Shown piece by piece: positions 14,845-59,557 of a DNA stretch of 64,000 bases (its first letter is position 1; every line of letters begins with the position of its first letter). The stretch lies in contig JAKSZP010000020.1 in assembly GCA_022478985.1 (NCBI GenBank), forward strand, positions 1-64,000, in the 5' to 3' direction. The DNA comes from Massospora cicadina. Taxonomy: Eukaryota > Entomophthoromycota > Entomophthoromycetes > Entomophthorales > Entomophthoraceae. The notes below the pieces were generated by a model that was not told the DNA's origin, ran no database searches, and saw only the letters and a program-made list of their open reading frames with translations. The translations under genes and the position numbers were made by a program.

Positions 14845-14919
14845 ATTGATTGGCTCAAGTATCATATCTGGGGCTCTTGAGTCTGGCTACCCCCTCCTGC
14901 TGCTGATGGATAGGAAGGC

Positions 14920-16215
14920 ATGCCGATCTACTTACCCAGGGCGACTACAGTACCCACAAAGTCCCAAGTCATTGCCAACACTTGGGTCCATGTCAACATT
15001 CCCTCAGGATACCTATTATTAATCCAAAGCCTGAACAACCCATCTCCTAAGGAAGTGCTGACCTGCCCCGGGATCCTTGATCCAGCATATGCCAGATCTA
15101 TATCAGTGTTGCTAGCCAACCTTACTGACAAACCCAAAGTCATAAATCCAAACAGTTCCGCCGCTTATGTCCTCCTTTTACCAATAGGAGCAGTTGCCAA
15201 TTTTCTAAGCTTTGGGGACTTGAGGGATTTTGGCTTGGAGTTGCCACCCTCAGTTAGTCTGGTTGAAGCTAATATTGGGAAGGACCTCTTGGATGACCAG
15301 CGACACAAGGTCCAGGAGTTGTTGGAGGAATACTTGGAACTATTCTCAACCTTGACCTATGACTTTGGAAGAATGAGCGGAGTCCTCCATCGCGTGGAAA
15401 CGGGGACGCTCCCCCTTTTTTGATCCTGACCTTACCAAAAAGCAAGGTCGAAGAGCCCAGGTGATGGTGGAACTTAAACAGCTACTCGACGCTGGGCTTC
15501 TGGTGCCATCACGCAGCCCTTGGGCCTCTCCTCTTCTGTTGGTTCAAAAGAAAGATGGCAGGCACTGGGTGGTGATGGATTATTGACGACTTAACTCATT
15601 CACTTAGAAGGATAGTTATCCTCTGCCCCAAATTGAAGATTCTCTATGTCTGCTTGCCAGTTCCCAGTACTTTTTGGCCATGGACCTCGCCAGCGGATAT
15701 TGGCAGGTTGAGCTCGCCCCTGAAGAATGAGCCAAGTGCGCTCTTATCGCCAATGAGGAGCTATTTGAGCCCACCTGGATGCCCCAAGGCCTTTGTAACG
15801 CTCCAGTCACTTTCCAGCGTGCCATGGACGGATCCTTGGGGACTTGAAGCTCTCATGTGTCCTCGTCTACCTGGATGACATTTTTGTTTTCTCGCGAACC
15901 TTCAATGGACATGTGGAGCATCTCAGGGAAGTCTTAGAAAAGCTTAGGAAGGCCTCTGTCAAGCTCAAGCTTTCAAAGTGCTCCTTCTTCCAGTCTGAGC
16001 TAGAGTTTCTTGGACACAAAGTCTCCAAGCGTGGCATCCAACCTATCCCTAACAAAGTTGACTCCATTGAGAAGATGTCAAGCCCCCAAATTTTAGGAGA
16101 TATCCAAGTCTTTCTTGGCATGGTGGGCTATTACCATCAGTTTATCCCACGGTTTGCCAACCGAGCCAAGCCACTTTTCTACCTCCTACAGAAGAATGTA
16201 CCGTTTGAGTGGTGA
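14920..16215 (+). pseudogene. Element C reverse transcriptase
   Basis: Linker and RT. The pre-RT block is at 14920-15423 (LLEEYLELFSTLTYDFG, LHRVETG). A frameshift at about 15420 follows. RT shows SPWASPLLLVQKKDG near 15515, VVMDY then a TGA (15584-15586; one transition from CGA) before RLNS, FLAMDLASGYWQ near 15670, and MPQGLCNAP near 15780. The catalytic YLDD is intact at 15868-15879, in an open segment (15844-16215) that also holds the thumb/connection motifs FLGHKVSKRGI and FLGMVGYYHQFIPRFA. Stops elsewhere are mostly CGA-to-TGA or TGG-to-TGA type. Confidence 0.9.
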
Positions 16216-16720
16216 CCTGAACAGGGGCAGGCTTTTAACGCTTTACGTATGGCTCTATATAATAAACCTGTTCTAGTTCACCCTCGCTTAGACCAACCCT
16301 TTTTGTTGTTCATGGATGCAAGTGATGTTGTCAAGAAGGCTATCCTATCCCAACATGATTAAAACCAGGTCAACCACCCCATGGCCTATTTTAGTAAAAT
16401 GCTAAGTAAAGCTGAGCGGAACTTCAGCGTCACCTAGAGAGAATGTCTAGCCATCCTAAAAGCCATCAAAAAATTTTGGCCTTACCTCTACAGTACCCAT
16501 TTTACTATTATTACAAACCATTCCTCTCTCTGGTGGCTCCAACAAATGAAAGACCCAGATGGTCGGCTAGCCAGGTGGGTTCTACAACTGCAAAGCTATA
16601 ATTTCACCATTGTCCATTGCGCAGGCATGATTCACCAGAATGCTGATGGACCTTCTCGGATGCTGGTTTTAGCAGTCTTGACCCTGAGGAAGATTGTCTA
16701 TATGACCTGATAGGACACCC
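16216..16720 (+). pseudogene. Element C RNase H
   Basis: Follows RT in frame after a TGA at 16213. Contains FLLFMDASD (first Asp), RECLAILKAIKKF (catalytic Glu), ITNHSSLWWLQQ (second Asp position is Asn, 'TNHSSL' for the usual TDHxxL) and IHQNADGPSR (last Asp present). Two further stops are visible. RNase H removes the RNA strand during reverse transcription; this copy has lost at least one acidic residue. Confidence 0.82.
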
Positions 16721-16759
16721 CGAGCAATGGGAATTGGAAACTCCTGAGGTCCAGGCCAA

Positions 16760-17890
16760 ACTCCACAGAATGACTCAAGACATACAAATTAAGGATGAGC
16801 TACTCTACAAGAAGGTCAACACGAAGTGGCTCCCTTATATCCGCCCCTCCTCTTGAACTGATGTCATCCTCGAAGGCCATTCAACTGTGAGACATGGGGC
16901 AGTTAAGAAGACTCACAAATGGCTGAAGTCACGATGCTACTGGGACTGAATGGTAGAAACCATCCAAGAGGTCTTAAAGGCTTGTATGACCTGCCAATCC
17001 CATGACTGCGCCAAACCTCAATTTCAACACTCCGTCGTTGCCCCAACTGGGCCCTTCAAAGTCGTTAGCATCAACGTGGTGGGTCCCCTTCCCACAGGAT
17101 TGCATGGCCACAAGTATATTATCTTGAAGGTGGACCACTTAACTAAGTGGGTTGAGGCGATTTCAGTTCCCGCTGCCACTGCCAAGGCACAGCTCTTTTC
17201 CTTGTTTGTTCCATTTTCACCCAGCACGGGTTCCCCAGACCTTACGTTCAGAAAATGTATTGAACTTCACCTCTCAGGTAGTACAAGAACTAACTTTGTT
17301 ATTTGGTACTACCCAGAGTTTCACTGCCCCTTACCACCCATCCACTAATGGGGCGGTAGAATGTGCTAACGGAACTTTTATTTTCCATCCTACAGAAGGT
17401 GAGCGCCTTGGATTTTGCCCGTTGGAACCATTATCTACCCAGCGCCTTGCTTGCCTACAGGGTGAGCTATCAACATGTCATCAAGATGTCCCCATTTAAA
17501 GCCCTATATGGGCGAGCACCTTAGCTAACAAATAGCGTCCAGCCACTGCTCAAAGCCTCCACACCTGAGAACTTCAAATTAACTATGAGGGCTTTAGCCA
17601 ATAAATTGTCCAGCTTTAATCCCAAGCCACTCAAGGAATTATCACCACCAATAAAAGAGAGACATCCCAGTTTAATCTCAGATGACCCTCCTTACCAATT
17701 TTCAATTAGGTGACCTCATTCTCTTTTATCACCATCGACCTGGAGGCTGACAAAATAATCTAGACGTACTTTGGTCTGGACCCTATAAAGTCATTCATAG
17801 GGTAAAGTCTGAGTACTCCATTGATGACGTAAACTATGGGACCATAGTAAACTGGGTGCATGGTCAGTTCCTGCAGCCATATTCCCCCTT
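16760..17890 (+). pseudogene. Element C integrase
   Basis: N-terminal HHCC zinc region at about 16870-17010 (GHSTVRHGAVKKTHKW ... CMTCQ). The core begins with KVVSINVVGPLPTG at 17060-17100; the first catalytic Asp is Asn (AAC 17073-17075). The second catalytic region is frameshifted near 17210 and continues in the next frame. YHPSTNGAVECANGT (17335-17375) keeps the catalytic Glu. The C-terminal region to 17890 is broken. No chromodomain seen. DNA strand transfer by this copy is not expected. Confidence 0.87.
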
Positions 17891-17896
17891 CAACAG

Positions 17897-17913
17897 GATC
17901 TTAAGGGGGGCGT
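17897..17913 (+). other. Element C polypurine tract
   Basis: AGGATCTTAAGGGGGGC immediately upstream of the 3' LTR. A related tract (GAGGGGGC) precedes the element Z LTR. Confidence 0.7.
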
Positions 17914-18324
17914 TGTTGGAATTTGATATAACAACCAAATCAAATTCCCCACTTCTGGATTGGGCCATGCTGAATCAGTCATCGAACCTAACCAAGCTAA
18001 ACTAATTTCAGGATCCTCCTCCCCTATTCCTGAGTCACTTGGGGTGGCGTTTCCACCCATTTGGTCAGTTGGGCGACACAATCCATTGAGGATGCCCATG
18101 AGGAGGCCATTCCTAAAAGATCAGTAAAGATCCTGAATGGATGAGGCCTCAACGATCCCTGAGGCACCAAGTCCCAACACACCCTATAAATATTGAAACC
18201 TTTTGATTTAATAAAGCATTTGGTAGTCTAACCCAATTTTCCATTTCCTTCTTAGCGCTCTTTCCAAATTTCCAGTGAGACACCTATGAACCTCAGCGCC
18301 AGTCTAGAAACTGTAGCACTGACA
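17914..18324 (+). repeat. Element C 3' LTR
   Basis: 411 bp, TGTTGGAATTTGA...GCACTGACA, co-linear with the 5' LTR and followed by the GCAAT target duplication at 18325-18329. Confidence 0.92.
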
Positions 18325-20370
18325 GCAATACTAAATGAATTGAAGTTGCCATGCGTCCTGGTGTACTTGGATGATATAAATGTGTTCATTAGGACATTTA
18401 ATGACCATTTGCACCTTTTAAAGGAAGTGTTCAAGAGACTATCCATGGTCAACTTGAAGTATATGCTGAGGAAGTGTCACTTCTTCAAGAAAGAGTTGGA
18501 ATACCTGGGATTTGTTATTGACTCTAGTAAATTGCAGCTGAAGCCCAGAAGATTGAAGCCATGAGCGAATGGATGTGCCAAAGAGTGTCCGAGGTATCCA
18601 AGTGTTCCTGGAATGGTAAGATTTATAGAAGATATATTTGGGATTTTGCATTAATCTCTGAGCCCCTATTCCATCTGTTGAAGGGTCCAAAAAGGATTTG
18701 TTTGAATATAGAAGCCCAGAAATCCTTTGATGATTTATACCAGTACTTAATATATTCTCCATTTTTGAAATATCCGAATTTTGATTCAGAATTTATAATG
18801 CAAACTGATGCTTCATTGATGACAATTGGCGCCATATTGAGCCAAGTAAATAAACTTGGGGACAAACATCTGGTGGCATATGTGAGCTGGACACTCTCAG
18901 CCGCTGATAGAAACTACATCATTTCTGAGCGTGAATGCCTTGCAGTCATTTACGCCTGTAAACAGTTTTGGTGTACATCCATAGAATGCACTTCAAAGTG
19001 GTGACGGACCACTCCTCATTGCGTTGGCTTCACAATCTATGAGAACCAGAAGGATGACTGGCCCAATGGGCACTAAAGCTACAGGCTTACAATATGAGAT
19101 AGTCAACCAAGCAGGTGCTTCTCATCATATTGCAGATGGATTATTGTGGTTACTAATGTTCCAGATGGTATCCCAGCAGGCTTATGAACTATTACAGCGA
19201 TTGGCCAACAAAGAATATGGGAATGAGCCCAGAGAAATCCAAGGTGCACTTTGAAAAGTTATGGAAAACACCAAGACCATGGATGGACAAGTCTTCAAGA
19301 TGATCAATGGGAAGTGATTTTTATTCCCAAAGCCCTCAGAATGAGCAGCTATCATTCAAGCCACTTATAAGGTTGTCAAGAACGGAGGCCTGAGAAAAAC
19401 AACTGACCATATTCACCAGTACTACTGGGAGTCCATCAGCTACAATGTCGCGGACTATCTGGCTTGCTGTGTGGATTTCCAGTTGCAAAAGCCACATAAG
19501 AATACGGCTGAATACTGACTAGTCCGCTGTGGATTTGCTTGGCATATGATGTCCATTGACATGGTGGGACCGCTGATGATGAGCACAGGGGGATTCAAGT
19601 ACATGATAGTTGCAATCAATCATCTAACAATATGGGTCAAGACATAGGCCCTGGAGAAAGTAGATGCTACCATTACTGCAAAGTTCATCCTAGATCAAGT
19701 AATATACTAACATGGATGCTTACAGGTCCTGCTGAGCGACAATGGGATAAATTTCACGACTCATGTGATCCTATAATTAAATGAATTATTGGGCATCTGA
19801 GGAGTCATGTCTTTACCCTACTGGCTGAAGATGGACGGACTGGTAGAAAGAGTTAATGGGACGCTGGCTGCAACGCTGAGGAAGCTAGTCACAGTAAGAA
19901 CTTCTGCGTTGATAATGTACCTGAGTTTGGTGAAATTCACCTACAATAGCACTCATTTACAGCAACAGGAAAAATGCTATTTGAGTTGCTATATAGAAGG
20001 AAGGCTGCGTTGCTAACAATTTTATATTTGGTGGTGGAACCAACATTGGGGATGAGTGCTGAGCAGTAATTGAACTTATTGACAAATATCCTGATCAAAA
20101 TGCAATCGCAAGCATTTGATATGACTTTGAAGAAAAGGATTTGAGTAAAAATGACAGATAATAAGAACTGACCAGCCTTATCAGAATATGAATTGCCAAA
20201 AGAGTTTCCTATTGCAATACACATGATTTCAGGAGAGTAAAACAAGGTGGATGCATTGTGTTTGGGTCCATTTAAAATTATTGGCAAGATGGTGATGGAT
20301 TCCTACTCCATCAAGAACTTTTTGGATGGAATAATAGTAAATCGAGTCCATGCTAAGTATTTAAAGCAAT
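18325..20370 (+). pseudogene. Element B RT 3' half, RNase H and integrase
   Basis: Continuation of B pol after the nested insertion. RT YLDDINVF near 18366 is intact; then CHFFKKELEYLGFVID. RNase H lies at about 18640-19150 (MQTDASLMTIGAILSQ, SERECLAVIYACKQF, VTDHSSLRW, ASHHIADGL), with its acidic residues recognisable. Integrase lies at about 19260-20010: MMSIDMVGPLMM near 19550, LSDNGINFTTHV near 19735, and DGLVERVNGTLAATLRKL near 19840, so D, D and E are all present although stops and shifts separate them. The C-terminal domain fragment GPFKIIGKMVMDSYSI...NRVHAKYLK ends near 20370 in a stop. Confidence 0.87.
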
Positions 20371-24749: not shown

Positions 24750-26480
24750 ATATATTCTAGTACTAGCTTTGCCCAACCCAAAAGAAGGTCCTTATGCACC
24801 TTTATTAATGGTGAGCTAAACAAAGGGATAATTAGATAAAAAATTTTAGGATGGAGCTGCGGCGTTAACTTAAGCATCCATATTAGAAGGGGAAGAGGGG
24901 TTGGGGGTTTTCGTCTGGTGCTGGATTCAGGTGGCAGCAAAGGCAGACAAAAGGGGGGTCGTAGAGTCAGTGGTGTGGGGCAGAAGGAGAAAGAGGTGAG
25001 GGTTCTCCTCATCAATGAGGCCAGTGGTATGCATATTCTCACCGTATTGGGTAAGTTGGTATTCTTCAGAGGTGATTAGTTTAGGAACACAAGTAAAAGG
25101 TTTGATGCGCTGGAGGGTTAGGGGTAGTTAGTGTAGTAAAGTGAAGATCTCACCATGTGCACATGAACTTTCAGCTGCAAAGCTAGTTATTTGATATTGT
25201 ATTTGGCGTCCCTGGAAATCTATAAAGAAAGTTAGGCATAGGCAAGCCCTCACAAAGTGGCTCAATTGCTGTATGGAGGGCTTGGCAGAGGAGGGAGTTG
25301 GTGGGGGCAGCGGCTGCTTTGACATCCTTTTGATGAATTATTTTATAATTAGGAAACTGCTGCGAGGACAGAAATGGTGGCGAGGAGTAAAATTGGGAGG
25401 CTTTATTAGAGTTCTTACCAGTCAAAGTTGTATTTTATCCATAGGCGCATTCAGCATCATTGATCCATTTGAGAGCGTTAAAAGGGTTCTCTACTGCCAG
25501 CACTGGTATAGTAACAGGAGTTGATTGGGTGGCAGATGCTCATTAGCCGCACACAGTGGTCTATGGCAATCCTTCCAGTGCATGAGTTGTAGTCTTCTCA
25601 GAAATGGGTTGGGCAGTCAAACCATGGTTGGGCAGAGTGGTGGGAGCAGAGCCTGTGGAAGTCAATGTTGGGGGAGGGAGGACTAATCCATATGCAAAAA
25701 AGTTGAAAATCATATATGGGGTTTACGCCAGATAGAGGAGTGGTAAATCTTCAGCAGGAAAATCTGGACACTTGCATCCTAAATGGTTGAGAGTAAAGCA
25801 TATGGGGCAAATGGCGTGGTCATTTTTGACGCATGCCTAGAAAGGATGATTAGGGATGGATCTGATCATAGCGAAGAGTATTGTGAGGTGGGTGTCATGG
25901 CAGAAAAAGTGGATTGTCATGAGCATGTGAGGCCCAGCGAGATGATCAGTGCCATTTGGCACCAAGAATTGCATCTTAGGGGTTGACGCTATAGGTATCC
26001 AAGCCCTCCATGAGCTCATGGTGGAGGCCTTTGGAGGAGAGGTGGGAAGGCAAGCTGTCAAACTGGACCACCAGTGTGACCTCATCTGACAAGTGAGTTC
26101 AGATGTTTAAATGCAGTGTTTTTAAAAACTGAAGGGATCTGGACTGCCACCATAGCATGGTCTTCAACAAAAAGCCAAGATGAAGTACCCCTTAATGGGG
26201 CGGAAATCAGTAAAATGGCGGGTTTGTAAACTGCCATGGCCATCTAAATGATAGCTGCGCTTGCATATGGTAAGAACTTCCCATACTTGACCCAAAGGCT
26301 GAAATGCAGGTTGCTCCAAGGGAGCACCAAGGGGCTTTTGATCACAGACTGGGAGCGTGCAAGGTGGTGAGCTAGGTCCTGGGGCAGGACTTAAAATCTT
26401 AAATTATTTTAGGGCTAGCTGGGCCAGCCTGGGGATTTTCAGCGGCGGCTGATAAACGCTAGGAGGTGGCACATTGCTTC
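24750..26480 (-). pseudogene. Second copy of the CCHC-knuckle protein relic (module X')
   Basis: Minus-strand relic, longer than the copy inside B. In translation order: about 25840-26100 carries EVTLVVQFDSLPSHLSSKGL and ILGAKW followed by SHAHDNPLF, reminiscent of the RNA-binding region of LINE ORF1 proteins. A complete zinc knuckle CPICFTLNHLGCKC follows at about 25795-25840. Downstream come a Pro/Thr linker and then VKAAAAPTNSLLCQALHTAI and EPLCEGLPMPNF near 25250-25330, which match VEAAAAPDNTLPHQQLHGAM and EPLVEGIPIP in the copy at 22862-23251. Frames are broken. It starts about 25 bp beyond the B target duplication. Confidence 0.55.
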
Positions 26481-26519: not shown

Positions 26520-27860
26520 ATTAGGTTTGGCGCTGGCAATAGGCAGTTGAAGTAAAAACTTTTTTTGAGATTTATAGTTTGATAGACAAAGAGATCAAAG
26601 CGAAAGAGAGTTTTTAAATGAGTATATAATTTATTCAGTATTTATATAGTTTAGACAAGATTTCTACCTGGACATTATCAATACTAAACTGTAGGTTTAT
26701 ATAAAATATGAAAGAAGTAACCAAAAAAGAAAGATTAAAATATTCTCTGAGTTTTAATTATCAAATTATAATCAATTCAGTTTATATTATTAAAGTTGTA
26801 GCTCTAAGCATTTTGATTTGAAGTTTAAGATTTGCTAGAGTAATATAGTTTGTCTACAAAATAACCTTTTTATTAATTCCAATTCACTTTTCTCTCGTTC
26901 AACCCATCCTTTATAGCATTCTTTATCAATGTGCCGTTTGGCCTATAATAAACTGCATATAACTTTTTTTATTTTATTTTCAGCAGCTCATATGATATTT
27001 AGTTTTTAGGCCGTGATCAAAAAGCTTTCTCAAAAAAACATTATGTAACATCTTTTCAGTTTCCTTGATGTCAAGACTACTGGTAACAAACATCGATGAA
27101 TCCCCCCCTTGGGTTGAAACCATCTAGTACTAAAAAAAGACTACTGGTAACAACACACTTGACTCTTTTTATATGCAGTGAGAAAAATTCAATTAGGTAT
27201 TAAAGGAAGATCTAGTATCAGCTTCAAAATTTTTAAAACATTAATTATCAGGTATAAGATCGTGAGACTCAAGACAAACTGTTAGAAAAGTTTAATAACA
27301 ATGTTACCTTTTGTTTTGTGTGGTCTAAATTCCTGTTTATAAATGTAAAAGTTTTAATCACTGTCAAACTATTTTATAAGTGATGCTCTGAATTAACCTA
27401 GGTTTGCCAAACTATCATGTGTTATTTTATCTGCACTATTTAGCTCAACAAAGTTATGAGATGCTTTAATTCTAAAAACATGAAGCACTTTGCATAGCAC
27501 CTAATTTAACATTAGGGAGTAATGACCAAGCGACTTGCACTTCCATAAGAAAATATAAAATTAGAGACAAAAATATACTTTTTGGAGTAGGTAAGCCTCT
27601 ACTTTTGTCATTTGTTACCATCAGATTGCATAATATTTGTTGTAACCTACCTATAGAGATATTACTCTATGATATAGCAGGTATGAAGGAGTAAGTTGGC
27701 CTGAATTAACCAAACTGAGAACAATGAGCTAATAAGGTTTCACTTCTTTGGTCTTGTTAAAAAAACACCCAAGTTATAAAGTGTTCAAGTAGGTGCTAAT
27801 GGAGTTTATTGAACTGCTTTTTTAAGATTAGGTACTATGTTTTTGAATTAAATTAGAGCT
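26520..27860. other. AT-rich intergenic stretch
   Basis: I see no gene, RNA or clear repeat apart from a short repeated phrase (GACTACTGGTAACA, near 27075 and 27145). Confidence 0.55.
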
Positions 27861-27877
27861 AAAATATGAATGGACTA

Positions 27878-28007
27878 AGGTTGGTAAGCCGAGAAGGTAA
27901 AACTGCTTCCACCCTAAGTGCAGGTTTTGAGTTTGAAAACTGTACTGTCTAGAAACATTCTCAGTGTGGTATATTTGTCCCAAGGTCAACCTACCTCGAA
28001 TAATTTT
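27878..28007 (+). mobile_element. SINE A (tRNA-headed, shared-tail family)
   Basis: A 130-bp element flanked by a 17-bp perfect target duplication, AAAATATGAATGGACTA (27861-27877 and 28008-28024). The 5' part resembles a tRNA with a long variable arm (GGTAAGCCGAGAAGGTAAAA as the decayed box A region; GTTTGAAAACTG as a decayed box B). The 3' tail is GTGTGGTATATTTGTCCCAA, then a GGTCAACCTACCTCGAATAA end. It is the same type as SINE B at 54150-54286 and shares its tail with SINEs C and D. Non-autonomous; would need LINE enzymes in trans. Confidence 0.85.
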
Positions 28008-28024
28008 AAAATATGAATGGACTA

Positions 28025-28440
28025 TATTACCATTGCCAAAATAAAGTGATTGGCTAGAAAGGGGGAGAAATTTCAGATGTAGAACATACATGTCAAGTGA
28101 TAGTGAAAAGTCATGGCTGCTGTTATGGAAAATTAAGTGCATCACTTCACTCCAGATTGCTCTAAGTGAGAGGGCAAGATATATTTAGTAAAATAATTTA
28201 CCAGGTTCTAAACATACCGCACAAGAGACATATGAAGTATTAGATTGTTCTGATGTTCAGTATGTGCGCCTAAGACATTTCCACACATGCGTGCAGATGT
28301 GGGGCTGGAGTAGATGGTAGTGGATGTATCTCCAAATCATTTTCTATATAAGGAGGTCTTAGGGATATCTAATTCGTAAGGTAATATGCTTAATCTATGG
28401 TGGATGGTCTACTTCAGATCCTTTCAAGTGAAATAACTTT
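28025..28440. other. Intergenic stretch before element D
   Basis: No feature recognised. Its last five bases (ACTTT, 28436-28440) are the left target duplication of element D. Confidence 0.6.
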
Positions 28441-54030: not shown

Positions 54031-54149
54031 TGCAGCATACTTTATTAAGTAGTGAAAAAAATGTTAGAGTGGAAGCAGGCCATCCATTTCTTTGTGCTTA
54101 GCACTGATGAGCGGAGAGTCATATTTGTACTAGGGTTGATGACCATGTT

Positions 54150-54286
54150 AAAATAAAATTATTTGAGGTGGGTCAACCTTGGGACAGATATACCACACTG
54201 AGAATGTTTTCTAGCCAGTACAGGTTTCGAACTCAAAACCTGCACTAGGGGTGGAAGCAGTTTTACCTGCTCAGCTAACCACCCTT
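54150..54286 (-). mobile_element. SINE B (tRNA-headed, shared-tail family)
   Basis: 137 bp on the minus strand, flanked by a 16-bp target duplication with one mismatch (GGTTGATGACCATGTT at 54134-54149; GGTTGATAACCATGTT at 54287-54302). The head carries a perfect box A consensus, TAGCTGAGCAGG, and a near-perfect box B, AGTTCGAAACC; the arm between them fits a tRNA with a long variable arm (Ser/Leu type). The tail is GTGTGGTATATCTGTCCCAA with GACCCACCTCAAATAA. Same head type as SINE A. Confidence 0.88.
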
Positions 54287-54302
54287 GGTTGATAACCATG
54301 TT

Positions 54303-55044
54303 GTACTGCTCTATAGGTGCAATAACACACTAGCAGGTGGAATATTCTCTCTGGTCTTGTTCTGGTCACTTTTGATTTTAAAAAGTGAGCTTAGCAAGAG
54401 AAAAAGTATTACTTTTTAAGGATTGGTCCAGTATCTGAACAGGAGTTTAGTATATATATTAAATTGGACTAGAATCAATGGATTTCAATTGTGGGACTAA
54501 TACATCACCAGATAAACTTAATTCTAGAATTAGCAAAGTGATAGCTTCAAAGCAACTTTTGACTTGATATATGTCCTATAGCTGAAGGGTATGTTCAAAA
54601 TCCAGGCAAGTATGAGATCATAGCATGATGAGCTTAAATCATTATAGATACCTATCATTTTCACATAATTTGACTGATAAAAGCAATCTAATTTGATGAA
54701 ATGAACTATTATAGATAGTGATTAATAAATTTAACATAGATTGCCTAATAAAATCAACTAAATCAATAAAATATATTATTAGTATATTTGTTATGAGATA
54801 CTATATATAATATATACAATGTTTTTTATTTTTGTAAAGAAATAGCATGGTTAAAAAAATAATATATAGAGATATTGATTTTATAATAAAATTGGAAAAA
54901 AGAACCACTTTTAAATATGTACTAATTTTTTGGGGGTCAAAGAACTGGGTTTAAAATTTTTAAGAAAAAAATACCTTCAAAAAGATATTTGGGTAAAAAA
55001 GACCCTCCTTTATTTTTTGGGAAAAAAGAACCTCCTTAAAAAAG
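54303..55044. other. AT-rich intergenic stretch
   Basis: No gene recognised; poly-A/T-rich phrases (AAAAAAGAACC, AAAAAAGACCC) repeat near 54900-55030. Confidence 0.5.
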
Positions 55045-55327
55045 CTCTAAAAAGTATAAAATAATTGAGAAATTATAAATACTCAATAAAACCTATTTTA
55101 AAGTTGGTGCCATCTTCCAACTTGACTAATAGAATTTTACTCACAAAATTAAATTAAAACATATAGGATTGGGTCCAAGTGTAAACTATAAGTAACTTAG
55201 AATATATAGTGCTGAGTATATATATTAGAAATGCTTATTATAAGGCAGTTTAAAATATGGTGCTGACTTCAAAAAGGGTTTTATTGAGTATTCATAATTT
55301 CTTAATTATTTTATACTTTTTTTATTT
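55045..55327. mobile_element. MITE copy 2 (inverted relative to copy 1)
   Basis: Arms AAAAAGTATAAAATAATTGA (left) and TAATTATTTTATACTTTTT (right) form an inverted repeat of at least 45 bp that continues inward through CTCAATAAAACC/GGGTTTTATTGAG. The centre GTAAACTATAAGTAACTTAG is the reverse complement of the copy 1 centre. SINE C has inserted into its right end. Confidence 0.75.
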
Positions 55328-55642
55328 GAGGTGGGCTGACCTTGGGACAAATATACTGCACTAATAGAGAGGATAGGGAGTAGGGAGTGACAATATAGGA
55401 GTGGAGGACAAAACCCAAGTACTGGGGGTAAAACCTTTCTGCACATGTTCTGATAGGCCAGGATTATATGATCTTACTTCACTGATTTGCTTAGTTGGAC
55501 TGAGGCATGGTATACAAATCCATATGTATTGATATCCTCTTGGCACAGAAATGCAATTAATATAATTTCTGCCATGATGGGATTTGAACCCATGATATGA
55601 GGGATGATAGCAGGATGCCCTCCCAACTATGCCACACCCCCT
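55328..55642 (-). mobile_element. SINE C (different tRNA head, shared tail)
   Basis: 315 bp on the minus strand, flanked by a perfect 19-bp target duplication (TTTTATACTTTTTTTATTT, 55309-55327 and 55643-55661). The head contains exact box A (TGGCATAGTTGG) and exact box B (GGTTCAAATCC) consensus sequences within a 71-nt tRNA-like segment (about 55571-55641) starting GGGGGTGTGG. The body of about 200 bp is unrelated to SINEs A, B and D. The tail, GTGCAGTATATTTGTCCCAA with GGTCAGCCCACCTCAAATAA, is the shared one. Confidence 0.88.
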
Positions 55643-55680
55643 TTTTATACTTTTTTTATTTATATAGATTCATAATTTTA

Positions 55681-55968
55681 TGATCACGGGGAGGATACCC
55701 CAGTGGTAGAATATGGACTCTTTACCACTGCCTTCCCAAGTTCGATTCCAGTACAGGAACTTTGGATAGGGGACAACTATGACTAAGTTGGTGCTGCACA
55801 CCAAAGCCCCAAACCTAGATAGTGAATAGCAAAGGCAGTCCATGGAGTTCCTAGCCTATCATACACTGCACATGGAGGTTTTCTGGATTTTATCCTCTTT
55901 TTCCATTCATTCGATTTCCCCTTAATCGGTGCGGTATCGTCCCCAGATCAGCCCACCTCGAATAAAAT
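55681..55968 (+). mobile_element. SINE D (tRNA-Gly-like head, shared tail)
   Basis: About 290 bp. The head GATACCCCAGTGGTAGAATA and AAGTTCGATTCCAGTACAGG resembles a tRNA-Gly (CAGTGGTAGAAT is characteristic; box B one mismatch). The body differs from A, B and C. The tail is GTGCGGTATCGTCCCCAGAT followed by CAGCCCACCTCGAATAA. I did not find a clear target duplication. Confidence 0.78.
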
Positions 55969-55984
55969 ATAAAATATTTGAAAT

Positions 55985-56600
55985 ATTCACCAATTCTCAC
56001 CCACTCACCCAAATAGATTAAACTTATCAGACTCGATTAGCTTCAGATGACAAAGTGTAAATTATTAGATAATATTCGCCAATTCTTACCAACTCACCCA
56101 AATAGATTGAACCTATCATATTCGATAGCTTCAGATTCGATCTTATTTGTCAATTCTCACCCACTCACCCAAATAGATTAAACTTATTAGAATCAATTAG
56201 CTTCAGGTGAGCAATTTGGTGAATTATTCAATGATATTTGTCATTCTTCACCCACTCGCCCAAATAGATTGAGCCCATCAGGCTCGATAATTTTAGATTC
56301 GATAAGATTCATCAATTCTCACCCACTCACCCAAATAGATTGACCCTATCAGACTCGAAGGTTTCAGATGTCAGTCAGTAAGTGAATGTGTTTTATTAAG
56401 TAGATAATTCACCAATTTGCTCATCTGAAGCTATCAAGTCTGATAAGTTTAATTTATTTGGGTGAGTGGGTGAGAATTGGCAAATAAGATCGAATCTGAA
56501 ACTAACGAGCCTGATGGGTTCAATCTATTTGGGTGAGTGGATGAGAATTGGCAAAAATTATCTAATAACTCACCAAATTGCTCACCTGAAACTCAACAAA
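55985..56600. repeat. Palindromic tandem array
   Basis: Five forward copies of a CACCCACTCACCCAAATAGA unit (anchors near 55999, 56089, 56159, 56248, 56320; spacing alternates about 90 and 70 bp). These are followed by two reverse-complement copies (TCTATTTGGGTGAGTGG-type, near 56447 and 56525). The intervening TCAGACTCGATTAGCTTCAG phrases also recur and invert. The whole could fold into a large cruciform. The alternating spacing implies a dimeric unit of about 160 bp. Confidence 0.75.
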
Positions 56601-57212: not shown

Positions 57213-57706
57213 TAAATAATAAATTACTGGTCAGGTACTGGACCAATTCTTACAAAATTGGAATGAGACCTAAGTGGGGAGCATCCTCTCATTTAAAAAA
57301 ATTCATCCAAATTGGTCCAGTAGTTCCAGAGTAAAGCGTGCACAAACATAAAAAAATATACATACAAGTCGAATTGAGAACCTCCTCCTTTTTCGAAGTC
57401 GGTTAATAAAAGTCATAAAAACGTAAGAAAATATTTAATTCTAATAAGAATTGATATATCGTTTTGGCTAAGCAGTTTGGTATTGCGGTTGATTTGATAG
57501 GTCAATAGTTTAGCTAAGAGGTTAATTTGGTTAATTCGATCGGCTCAATGGTTTTGCCTAGGCAGTTTGATGGTTATTCGATTGATTTGATAGGTTCAAT
57601 TGCTTCTTAAAATTATCAATGGTTATTTACAATATAAAAGCTAAAACAATCGATTATAATCGTCTGGTGAATTATAAACCCAAGCAGCGCTGGGTAAATC
57701 AGCTGG
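57213..57706 (+). mobile_element. Helitron-like segment with 3' terminus 3
   Basis: Begins directly after the preceding terminus and ends with CCCAAGCAGCGCTGGG (hairpin), TAAATCAG, CTGG (57703-57706) and T. The interior 57230-57420 matches the fragment at 45540-45700 on the other strand, including the GAAGTCGGTTA phrase. 57460-57605 is made of degenerate GATTTGATAGGTTCAAT repeats. Non-coding, so non-autonomous. Confidence 0.6.
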
Positions 57707-58269: not shown

Positions 58270-59557
58270 ATGGGGCTTGTTGATTATAGCGATGACGAAT
58301 CTTCCATTTCATCCCCTCCGCACAAAAGTGCGCCTTTCATTAACGCGAATGTGCCAGCCAGTTTAAATACAACAACGAGCGTGAATAACGCCTTAGATGA
58401 GGTCCAGCTTTTCGAGGAATCTTTAAAACCAGGTGAACCTTTTTTTATTAATTTTGGTTAAAACAGTTTTCGAAGTTAAACCTTTCTCTTTTATATAAAT
58501 TGATTGCGCAACATTGGATTTTTTGGTTTGAATGCTTAACTTGAAGCCTTTTTTATTTACTACATTATCATATTTAACCCCGTTTTTACTTAGAGATTGT
58601 TTTAAAATCACCTTAGTTAGTATAGCTATAGATAAATATAGGTTAATTTTTGAATGAAAGTATTAACCTTGGACCGATTCTTTTAAGCATTCAACGGTGT
58701 TTATCATAATATATATTTTATTATTAGTCTATTTGTTTCAAAAGCTTGGTATAATTTAAGATTTCTGACGTCTAAACATGTTGCTAGAACAGCCCGAGCA
58801 ATTAATAATTGAACCTTCAACCGAAAGTTATAACCCATCGGAAAGTTATGTTCAACCAGAGTATAAAAGTACACCACCACCACCGGATTTGCAAGTTGAT
58901 GAAAAGAACCTTGGAGAAAATGATGAAAGGCTAGGGCTGATAACAGAAGCACCCAACGAGAGTACAATTCGGACTAAACCTACCTATGAAGAAATTCGAA
59001 TCAAAAGGTTGCAGCTTTTGATGCCCGAGCCCTGGCAGGGTTGCTCATCTTGGGAGCTTCCACCTGAACCTTCTACGGAGGTTAACTCTGAGGTCCAGGC
59101 CAAAGTGGATGGTCTTCAGGCTATGCTTGAACATGGAATCCAGTTTAATCAAAGGCTTCAAGTTAACCAAAGCTTCCGCAATCCACACATTTATGATAAA
59201 CTAGTTGAATACTTGGATTTATTTGAGTTTGGTAGCAATTTTCCTAGGTCCTGGTACAATCCTTCAGCTCTTCCTTCCTCCATCCGAGGCTCGCGCCTAA
59301 CAGAAGCCCAGAAGGCGGCTGCTAAAGCCAAAGCTGCTGCTCAAGCTGCCAATACGCGTTCTAGCATTCCATTTGTCTCAGCCAAGGCCCCATCTGAGAT
59401 TGCCTCCTCCGCTATTAAACGTGTTATGGCTTCTGCCAAAAATTCTGGCCATACTACCCAACCTTCAGGTATTCTATATTTCTGAATTGAGTTAGCCTTT
59501 TCTTTAGATTCAAAGCGTCGGAAGACCAAGTGGGATATACCTCCCCATGCATCCTAA
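58270..59557 (+). CDS. SAP30BP: HCNGP/SAP30BP-family nuclear protein, three exons
   Basis: Exons 58270-58432, 58788-59468 and 59508-59557 give a predicted 297-residue protein. Introns are 58433-58787 (355 nt, GT...TAG) and 59469-59507 (39 nt, GT...TTTAG); both are phase 1 and the frame is open throughout. The start MGLVDYSDDES is acidic and typical of fungal members. The HCNGP core spans about residues 145-213: LPPEPST, then FRNPHIYDKLVEYLD (about 184-198) and GSNFPRSWYNP (about 203-213). An Ala/Lys-rich helix follows (about 225-251). The C-terminus is SKRRKTKWD (283-291), a basic motif also found in SAP30BP. Family members are nuclear; human SAP30BP is a transcription corepressor-associated and splicing-related factor. 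Function here is inferred from family. It is the only intact host gene in the window, with transposons on both sides. The intron 1 acceptor could alternatively be a few bases downstream, but only AG at 58786-58787 keeps the phase. Confidence 0.9.

Follow-up and report, generated by a model that had tools for sequence, protein, structure and literature searches.

Do short elements that carry unrelated promoter-like heads and end in the same 3' tail form one set of SINEs copied by common machinery, and if so, which LINE supplies it? The question is raised by four elements, referred to here as A, B, C and D, in a 64,000-nt stretch of the genome of the fungus Massospora cicadina (C20:1-64000, henceforth "the window"). 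We propose, at a probability of about 85%, that A-D represent three families of SINEs with promoter-like heads and a single LINE-related tail, which likely allows a LINE reverse transcriptase (RT) to copy them. The analysis made use of the assembly to which the window belongs (1,469,884,898 bases or 1.47 Gb, 16,968 contigs), of an unselected sample of 20 contig starts of 10 kb each, which together with the window amounts to 264 kb, and of loci read elsewhere in the same genome, which carry labels of the type L005 or L017.

Anatomy of the four SINE copies

All four copies were found where the original prediction had placed them. SINE A (27878-28003, plus strand; tail at 27963-28003) is flanked by a target-site duplication with the sequence TAAAATATGAATGGACTA, whose 5' copy lies at 27860-27877 on the plus strand and whose second copy lies at 28007-28024. 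SINE B is a full-length element on the minus strand (54159-54285; tail at 54159-54199), for which the box scan reported an A box at 54277-54266 and a B box at 54233-54223; its duplication of 16 bp with one mismatch is located at 54287-54302 (minus strand) and 54134-54149. SINE C, also full-length and on the minus strand (55322-55641; tail at 55322-55362), exhibits two perfect boxes in the same scan (A box 55634-55623, B box 55590-55580) and a duplication TAAAAAAAGTATAAAA at 55643-55658 (minus strand), with the other copy at about 55309-55324. SINE D is encoded on the plus strand (55683-55965; tail at 55925-55965; A box 55696-55707, B box 55739-55749); a target-site duplication was looked for at this copy and none was found.

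A and B are 88% identical along their length and constitute one family, A/B (~127 bp). The similarity of C (~320 bp) and D (~283 bp) to A/B and to each other is confined to the last 27-41 nt, in agreement with the expectation that the heads are of three kinds and that the bodies of C and D are unrelated; each of the three kinds also forms a family in the genome. The region common to all four copies is a 3' tail of ~41 nt. With up to 3 mismatches allowed, the tail pattern TTGTCCCAAGGTCARCCYACCTCRAATAA matched the window exactly four times, at the four tails, and not once in 100 shuffles, hence the common tail is not a product of chance. A search of IMG/VR with the same pattern returned 0 matches.

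Among the other features of the window, the region directly following SINE D (55980-56400) contains imperfect tandem repeats with CACCCACTCACCCAAATAGATT, and broken pieces of a Ty3/Gypsy-like pol are found on the plus strand at 14914-19004 (dUTPase-like, weak, 14914-15423; RT, 15799-16215; RNase H-like, 18531-19004). The only clear host gene near the SINEs is a reading frame of the HCNGP/SAP30BP family (58769-59485, plus strand; Pfam PF07818, E-value 4.7e-23), whose best named relative, matched at 79% over 62% of the query, is from Entomophthora muscae, in agreement with an entomophthoralean host.

Heads and putative Pol III promoters

The scan for A and B boxes, carried out with consensus strings and tRNA-like spacing, revealed only 8 pairs with at most 2 mismatches in 528,000 strand-bases. 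Four of them correspond to SINE heads (B, D and, twice, C), while the remaining four are located at L017:6729, window position 57541, L026:322 and L011:6710. The pair in C is the sole perfect one in the entire 528,000 strand-bases; its boxes had been called perfect in the original prediction. Hence Pol III promoters are predicted in B, C and D; copy A lacks a pair at this threshold of 2 mismatches, and its promoter appears to be decayed. The distance between the A box and the B box is 44 nt in B, 44 nt in C and 43 nt in D, and a host tRNA-Lys (L054) has a spacing of 44 nt, counted by eye. Because the spacing of 43-44 nt is that of the host tRNA-Lys, the assignment of the A/B head to a tRNA type with a long variable arm, made in the original prediction, fails and was rejected.

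The heads were further aligned to 20 of the 37 listed host tRNA genes, a set limited to Lys, Cys, Thr, Asn and Arg, with the best of 30 shuffled heads as a control. The head of C (scores 34-40; shuffled maximum 30) and that of D (scores 35-43; shuffled maximum 30-37) exceeded the control, with tRNA-Lys or tRNA-Cys reported as the best match in this set for D, whose head the original prediction had called tRNA-Gly-like. The A/B head obtained scores of 29-31 (shuffled maximum 29-30) and the head of copy A a score of 24 (shuffled maximum 32), hence by this comparison with 20 host tRNAs the A/B head seems hardly tRNA-like. Dedicated tRNA searches gave little: ARAGORN at default settings called no tRNA in the window, at lowered thresholds it was swamped by noise (147 calls at 80% in 264 kb), and Rfam at the gathering score identified no tRNA over the window. 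With E-values up to 10 allowed for the regions 54100-56000 and 27800-28100, only tmRNA (a member of the tRNA clan, E-value 0.0069) among the Rfam models overlapped the T arm of C.

Genomic distribution and signature of insertion

Searches of the genome with each family scored the 40 best candidates, hence the lists bound neither the numbers nor the ages of the copies. For A/B, at least 40 matches were obtained, one of them the window copy; the other 39 are 95-98% identical, and each match spans at least positions 9-134 of the 141-nt query. For C there were at least 50: 46 matches at 86-92% and the window copy, 47 in all, extend across most of the element, while 3 comprise only the tail. For D there were at least 41, namely the window copy, 39 that match almost the entire element at 86-90%, and one partial match. 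The matches listed for each family stop at the tail. First-look candidates in the genome numbered 3229 for A/B, 1934 for C and 7976 for D. SINEs are about 80-600 bp long, dispersed and present in high copy number; the three families measure 127, 320 and 283 bp, and their near full-length matches number at least 40, 47 and 40, respectively.

The tail profile identified 8 strong SINE tails in the 200-kb sample and 4 in the window. Scaling of 8 tails per 200 kb to 1.47 Gb suggests very roughly 59,000 SINE copies in the genome, which indicates the order of magnitude only, since contig starts are not random and the count is small.

Among the 46 copies longer than 80 bp that were compared (from the loci fetched and the window, most loci having entered through full-length matches), all 46 reach the 3' tail and none lacks the 3' end. 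When the sample and the window are considered alone, the tail is retained in 11/11 copies, and 5' sequence is missing in 5/11 (i.e. they start at query position 13 or later). Target-site duplications of 12-24 bp, defined as at least 12 bp with at most one mismatch and flush with the element ends, accompany 36/46 copies (A/B 13/17, C 7/10, D 16/19), compared with 3/880 shifted controls. The duplications and the loss of 5' sequence only are the signature of target-primed reverse transcription.

In the loci read, SINEs as a rule occur as single dispersed copies. Five loci (L049-L053) contain C copies in head-to-tail arrays, with units mostly spaced by (ATT)n, as if the elements had inserted into TTA repeats or slippage had taken place at the AATAA end.

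LINE 3' ends related to the SINE tail

When the SINE-tail profile was run over the 264 kb, the 12 strong SINE tails ranked first and the next three matches (L017, L012 and L014; E-values 0.04-0.14) were located at 3' ends of LINEs or of elements with ORF1 only. Copies of one LINE family that retain the RT (LINE1; L009, L020) carry tails of the RGTAATGYCCRYCCCCTGGTYRGCTTRCC...TTAAATAAA type about 1.7 kb past the RT motif, and a second family (LINE2; L023 and L025 on the minus strand, and L030 by eye) has tails of the RGAAGTGTCCATCCC...CCTTCC type. A 426-nt query from the LINE1 end yielded 3763 first-look candidates in the genome; in all of the best 40 that were scored (its own place included), the match stops at query position 417-426, i.e. 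at the end of the tail. Ends were fetched for 20 of the other 39, and 19/20 match the SINE-tail profile at the tail (E-values 0.003-3.8).

Twelve LINE or ORF1-only ends were compared with 500 shuffles each: for eight of them no shuffle scored as well, for three only 1-2 did, and the plus-strand end of L025 obtained no profile score, yet 14/500 of its shuffles did. Seven of these twelve ends (L005, L034, L002, L012, L014, L017 and L030) had come to attention through tail profiles or through a neighbouring SINE, hence their scores are partly selected.

Over a 19-nt tail core, the LINE1 majority sequence agrees with D at 15, with C at 13 and with A/B at 12 positions, compared to 16-17 of 19 among the SINE families themselves; the LINE1 and SINE tails are therefore related, not identical. 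In the sequences read (40 short stretches, 33 longer loci and the 264 kb), none of the LINEs ends in the exact SINE-type tail; two LINE-type ends that belong to an uncertain element (L005 and L034) come closer to the SINE form. Thus, within these sequences, the expectation that a LINE would end in the same tail holds for related tails, found in LINE1, LINE2 and ORF1-only elements, but not for an identical one. Likewise, LINE ends are indeed related to the tail, but the notion of one partner LINE does not follow, because at least two LINE families and the ORF1-only elements carry related tails.

The ORF1-only elements are represented by L012 (near 6751, minus strand), L014 (near 1575, minus strand) and L002 (near 1305, plus strand), each with an ORF1-like frame and a LINE-type tail and with no RT before it. 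The frame in L014 contains a CCHC-like motif, recognised by eye, and such elements resemble half-LINEs. In tblastx comparisons, the pieces from L014 and L012 match each other, whereas their similarity to L020 and L017, two LINE1 copies, is confined to the tail; tblastx also detected relatives of the ORF1-only frame, in a decayed state, in the window (25747-26097, minus strand) and at L018:3264-3443. At L030:1440-1900, a C element has inserted into an apparent LINE2 copy, as judged by eye, at a site about 30 bp from its 3' tail and on the 5' side of it, which allows the two tails to be compared next to each other.

Predicted hairpin in the tail

A small hairpin is predicted in the tail. Its outer stem reads RGTAA:TTRCC in LINE1, RGAAG:CTTSC in LINE2 and, in the majority of the SINEs, RGTG:CACC. 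Pairing in the proposed structure amounts to 78% for 11 LINE-type tails, compared to 70% in shuffled sequences; its outer helix is 86% paired, the proposed inner pair is present in 1/11, and a slide by +1 still pairs 71% of cells. A second test was limited to four outer pairs in 21 chosen SINE and LINE sequences, with the spacer left out: 88% of cells are paired, compared to 77% in shuffles (0/500) and 21-46% when one side is slid. In this set the fourth outer pair is A-U in the LINEs and G-C in 7 SINE sequences, and the outermost pair fails in 8/21. Two pairs are changed on both sides, a number reached by 198/500 shuffles of the 21 sequences and 212/500 shuffles of the 11 tails, and these two-sided changes may represent only two events. 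The folding energies of the single tails are not significant (z from -0.46 to -1.77 for 11 tails folded singly), and the tail of the window copy of C and some others fold differently.

Relationships of the LINE reverse transcriptases

The database search with the LINE1 RT reported 111 relatives, of which the named ones come from Mucoromycota (Lichtheimia, Parasitella, Rhizopus) and plants (three labelled LINE-1), with one labelled R2. Among PDB structures, entries of the LINE-1 ORF2 protein (82-83 bits) score above R2 (73), while the top match, 8c8j (84), is named only RNA-directed DNA polymerase. For the LINE2 RT, Transposon TX1 is named in Zancudomyces, Choanephora and Thalictrum among the best 120 of 340 relatives, and LINE-1 is again ahead of R2 in the PDB; the best match of a LINE2 RT piece is a Massospora cicadina protein (66% over 69%).

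An RNase H domain that follows the RT is a feature of Tad1, the clade to which MGR583 also belongs. No RNase H family was found in 9 LINE ORF pieces at E-values up to 1, and this absence is weak evidence, because the pieces are frameshifted. The C-terminal piece of LINE2 matches zf-RVT with an E-value of 1.3e-4, which is below the cut-off. In a tree of 26 of the 111 LINE1-RT relatives together with LINE1 and LINE2, and with no Tad1 member, LINE1 and LINE2 are joined (100/98) inside a group of five, the other three members of which are unnamed; the connections of this group to those of Mucoromycota and of plants lack resolution, and two Nicotiana sequences fall outside, on long branches. As far as RT similarity can tell, the partner LINEs are likely L1-like (L1/Tx1), which is the best reading and not a proven one. 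As the LINEs look L1-like, this would be a tail-recognising partnership of the L1 type in a fungus.

Proposed mechanism and alternative explanations

According to the proposed explanation, the SINE would be transcribed by Pol III, a LINE protein would bind the hairpin in the tail of the transcript, nick AT-rich DNA and prime reverse transcription at the AATAA end, and the tail would repeatedly have gained new Pol III units on its upstream side, probably because the RT switched templates to another small RNA. A repeated acquisition of new Pol III heads had already been anticipated in the original prediction, whose core interpretation holds: the heads on the one tail are unrelated, insertion is of the target-primed type, the host is a fungus and LINE 3' ends are related to the tail. 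At one locus (L032:1362-1840), a full C copy lies six bases downstream of a full A/B copy, and the two have one outer duplication of 14 bp with 1 mismatch, TAGGGTTGYTAAAA; the pair may be a dimer or a product of template switching, and would fit the proposed gain of heads.

The identity of the partner is where the strongest alternative arises: the SINEs could be copied by a LINE family absent from our sample, with a closer tail, LINE1 and LINE2 being cousins of that partner. We regard this as a serious contender whose chances are nonetheless below even. The SINE cores do agree better among themselves (16-17 of 19) than with LINE1 (12-15 of 19), and of the 1.47 Gb the reading took in 264 kb together with 40 short stretches and 33 longer loci; against this, LINE1 is abundant, with its 3763 first-look candidates, and its end is conserved, while L005 and L034 show that tails nearer to the SINE form exist at LINE-type ends, albeit of an uncertain element. 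One could go further and deny the relationship to LINEs altogether, i.e. regard the tail as a SINE-specific 3' domain that recombined between families and resembles LINE ends by chance or convergence. The greater closeness of the SINE tails to one another than to LINE1 and the non-significant folds of single tails would agree with such a scenario, but we consider it improbable, as the resemblance is found precisely at the LINE 3' terminus in independent copies (19/20), for 8 of 12 ends none of the 500 dinucleotide shuffles scored as well, and the outer stem seems to remain paired through two-sided changes.

Least credible, and in our view close to negligible, is the possibility that a DNA transposon or satellite took in tRNA fragments and that the tails merely mark its ends. 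Head-to-tail arrays of C with (ATT)n-rich spacers are what one could expect from a satellite, but single dispersed copies predominate in the loci read, and the exact ends, the variable duplications of 12-24 bp in 36/46 copies and the loss confined to the 5' side, with no copy that lacks the 3' end, led us to reject it. In particular, the exact ends and variable duplications make the elements unlike tRNA debris within a DNA transposon, one of the two situations named in advance as incompatible with a modular SINE set; the other, a tail always associated with a single head, did not occur either, as the tail is found with three. We therefore retain the reading of three SINE families with a LINE-related tail.

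Comparison with known SINE-LINE systems

LINE-tailed SINEs with several heads are already known from salmonids and maize. The closest counterparts by description are ZmSINE2 and ZmSINE3 with LINE1-1_ZM of maize/sorghum, where, according to the consulted part of PMC3747384, tRNA-headed SINEs also share the 3' hairpin of an L1-clade LINE and more than one SINE family uses one LINE tail; the plant ZmSINE2 ends in T runs, in contrast to AATAA(A/T)n in Massospora. The same part of that article describes the salmonid SlmI, HpaI and OS-SINE1 on RSg-1, which likewise combine different heads (there tRNA and 5S) with one LINE tail but differ in the vertebrate host and in another LINE partner, and SINEX-3_CR with L1-1_CR of Chlamydomonas, which is tRNA-headed and has ~80 nt in common with an L1-clade LINE but represents one SINE family with a poly(A) end in a green alga.

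Fungal tRNA-headed SINEs with LINE-related 3' ends are represented by Mg-SINE with MgL/MGR583 and SINE2-1_BG with Tad1-24_BG (PMC3747384, in part) and by AfuSINE2-1a with a Tad1-type LINE (PMC5063351, in part). The consulted portion of the latter gives copy numbers of ca. 100 for Mg-SINE and ca. five for AfuSINE3. Those SINEs are thus of low copy number and have Tad1-type or MGR583 partners, in contrast to the Massospora set, whose copies number roughly in the tens of thousands and whose likely partners have an RT of L1/Tx1-like type. In the 2013 table of PMC3747384, as far as consulted, L1 partners occur only in green plants (maize/sorghum and Chlamydomonas) and the partners of the two fungal pairs are Tad1 and MGR583; therefore a fungal SINE set on an L1-like tail is the unusual aspect of the present case.

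In a search that missed most of the subscription literature, none of the papers listed described SINEs from Entomophthorales or Massospora. The word SINE is absent from the main text of an entomophthoralean genome paper, according to which L1 LINEs make up a substantial fraction (6.3%) only in Massospora cicadina among the relatives compared (PMC10515909, in part).

Implications

These elements are of interest for three reasons, namely their fungal host, their copy number and their likely L1 partner. They would add a high-copy SINE set to a very large fungal genome and may account for part of the repeats classified as "Unknown" in such genomes. With three heads, several stem sequences and one core, they also provide a natural series for asking what a LINE reads in the tail.

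In a broader interpretation, to which we give slightly less than an even chance, the LINEs, the ORF1-only elements and the three SINE families would form a guild that parasitises a single L1-type LINE lineage, united by one covarying hairpin tail. Whether L1 LINEs began as stringent (hairpin) or relaxed (poly(A)) elements is a question discussed in PMC3747384, on which the Massospora set bears if the partner truly belongs to the L1 clade. If the guild interpretation is true, stringent recognition of a 3' hairpin exists in L1-type LINEs outside green plants, which would favour a stringent ancestral L1, with the recognition of poly(A) in mammals and flowering plants being a derived feature.
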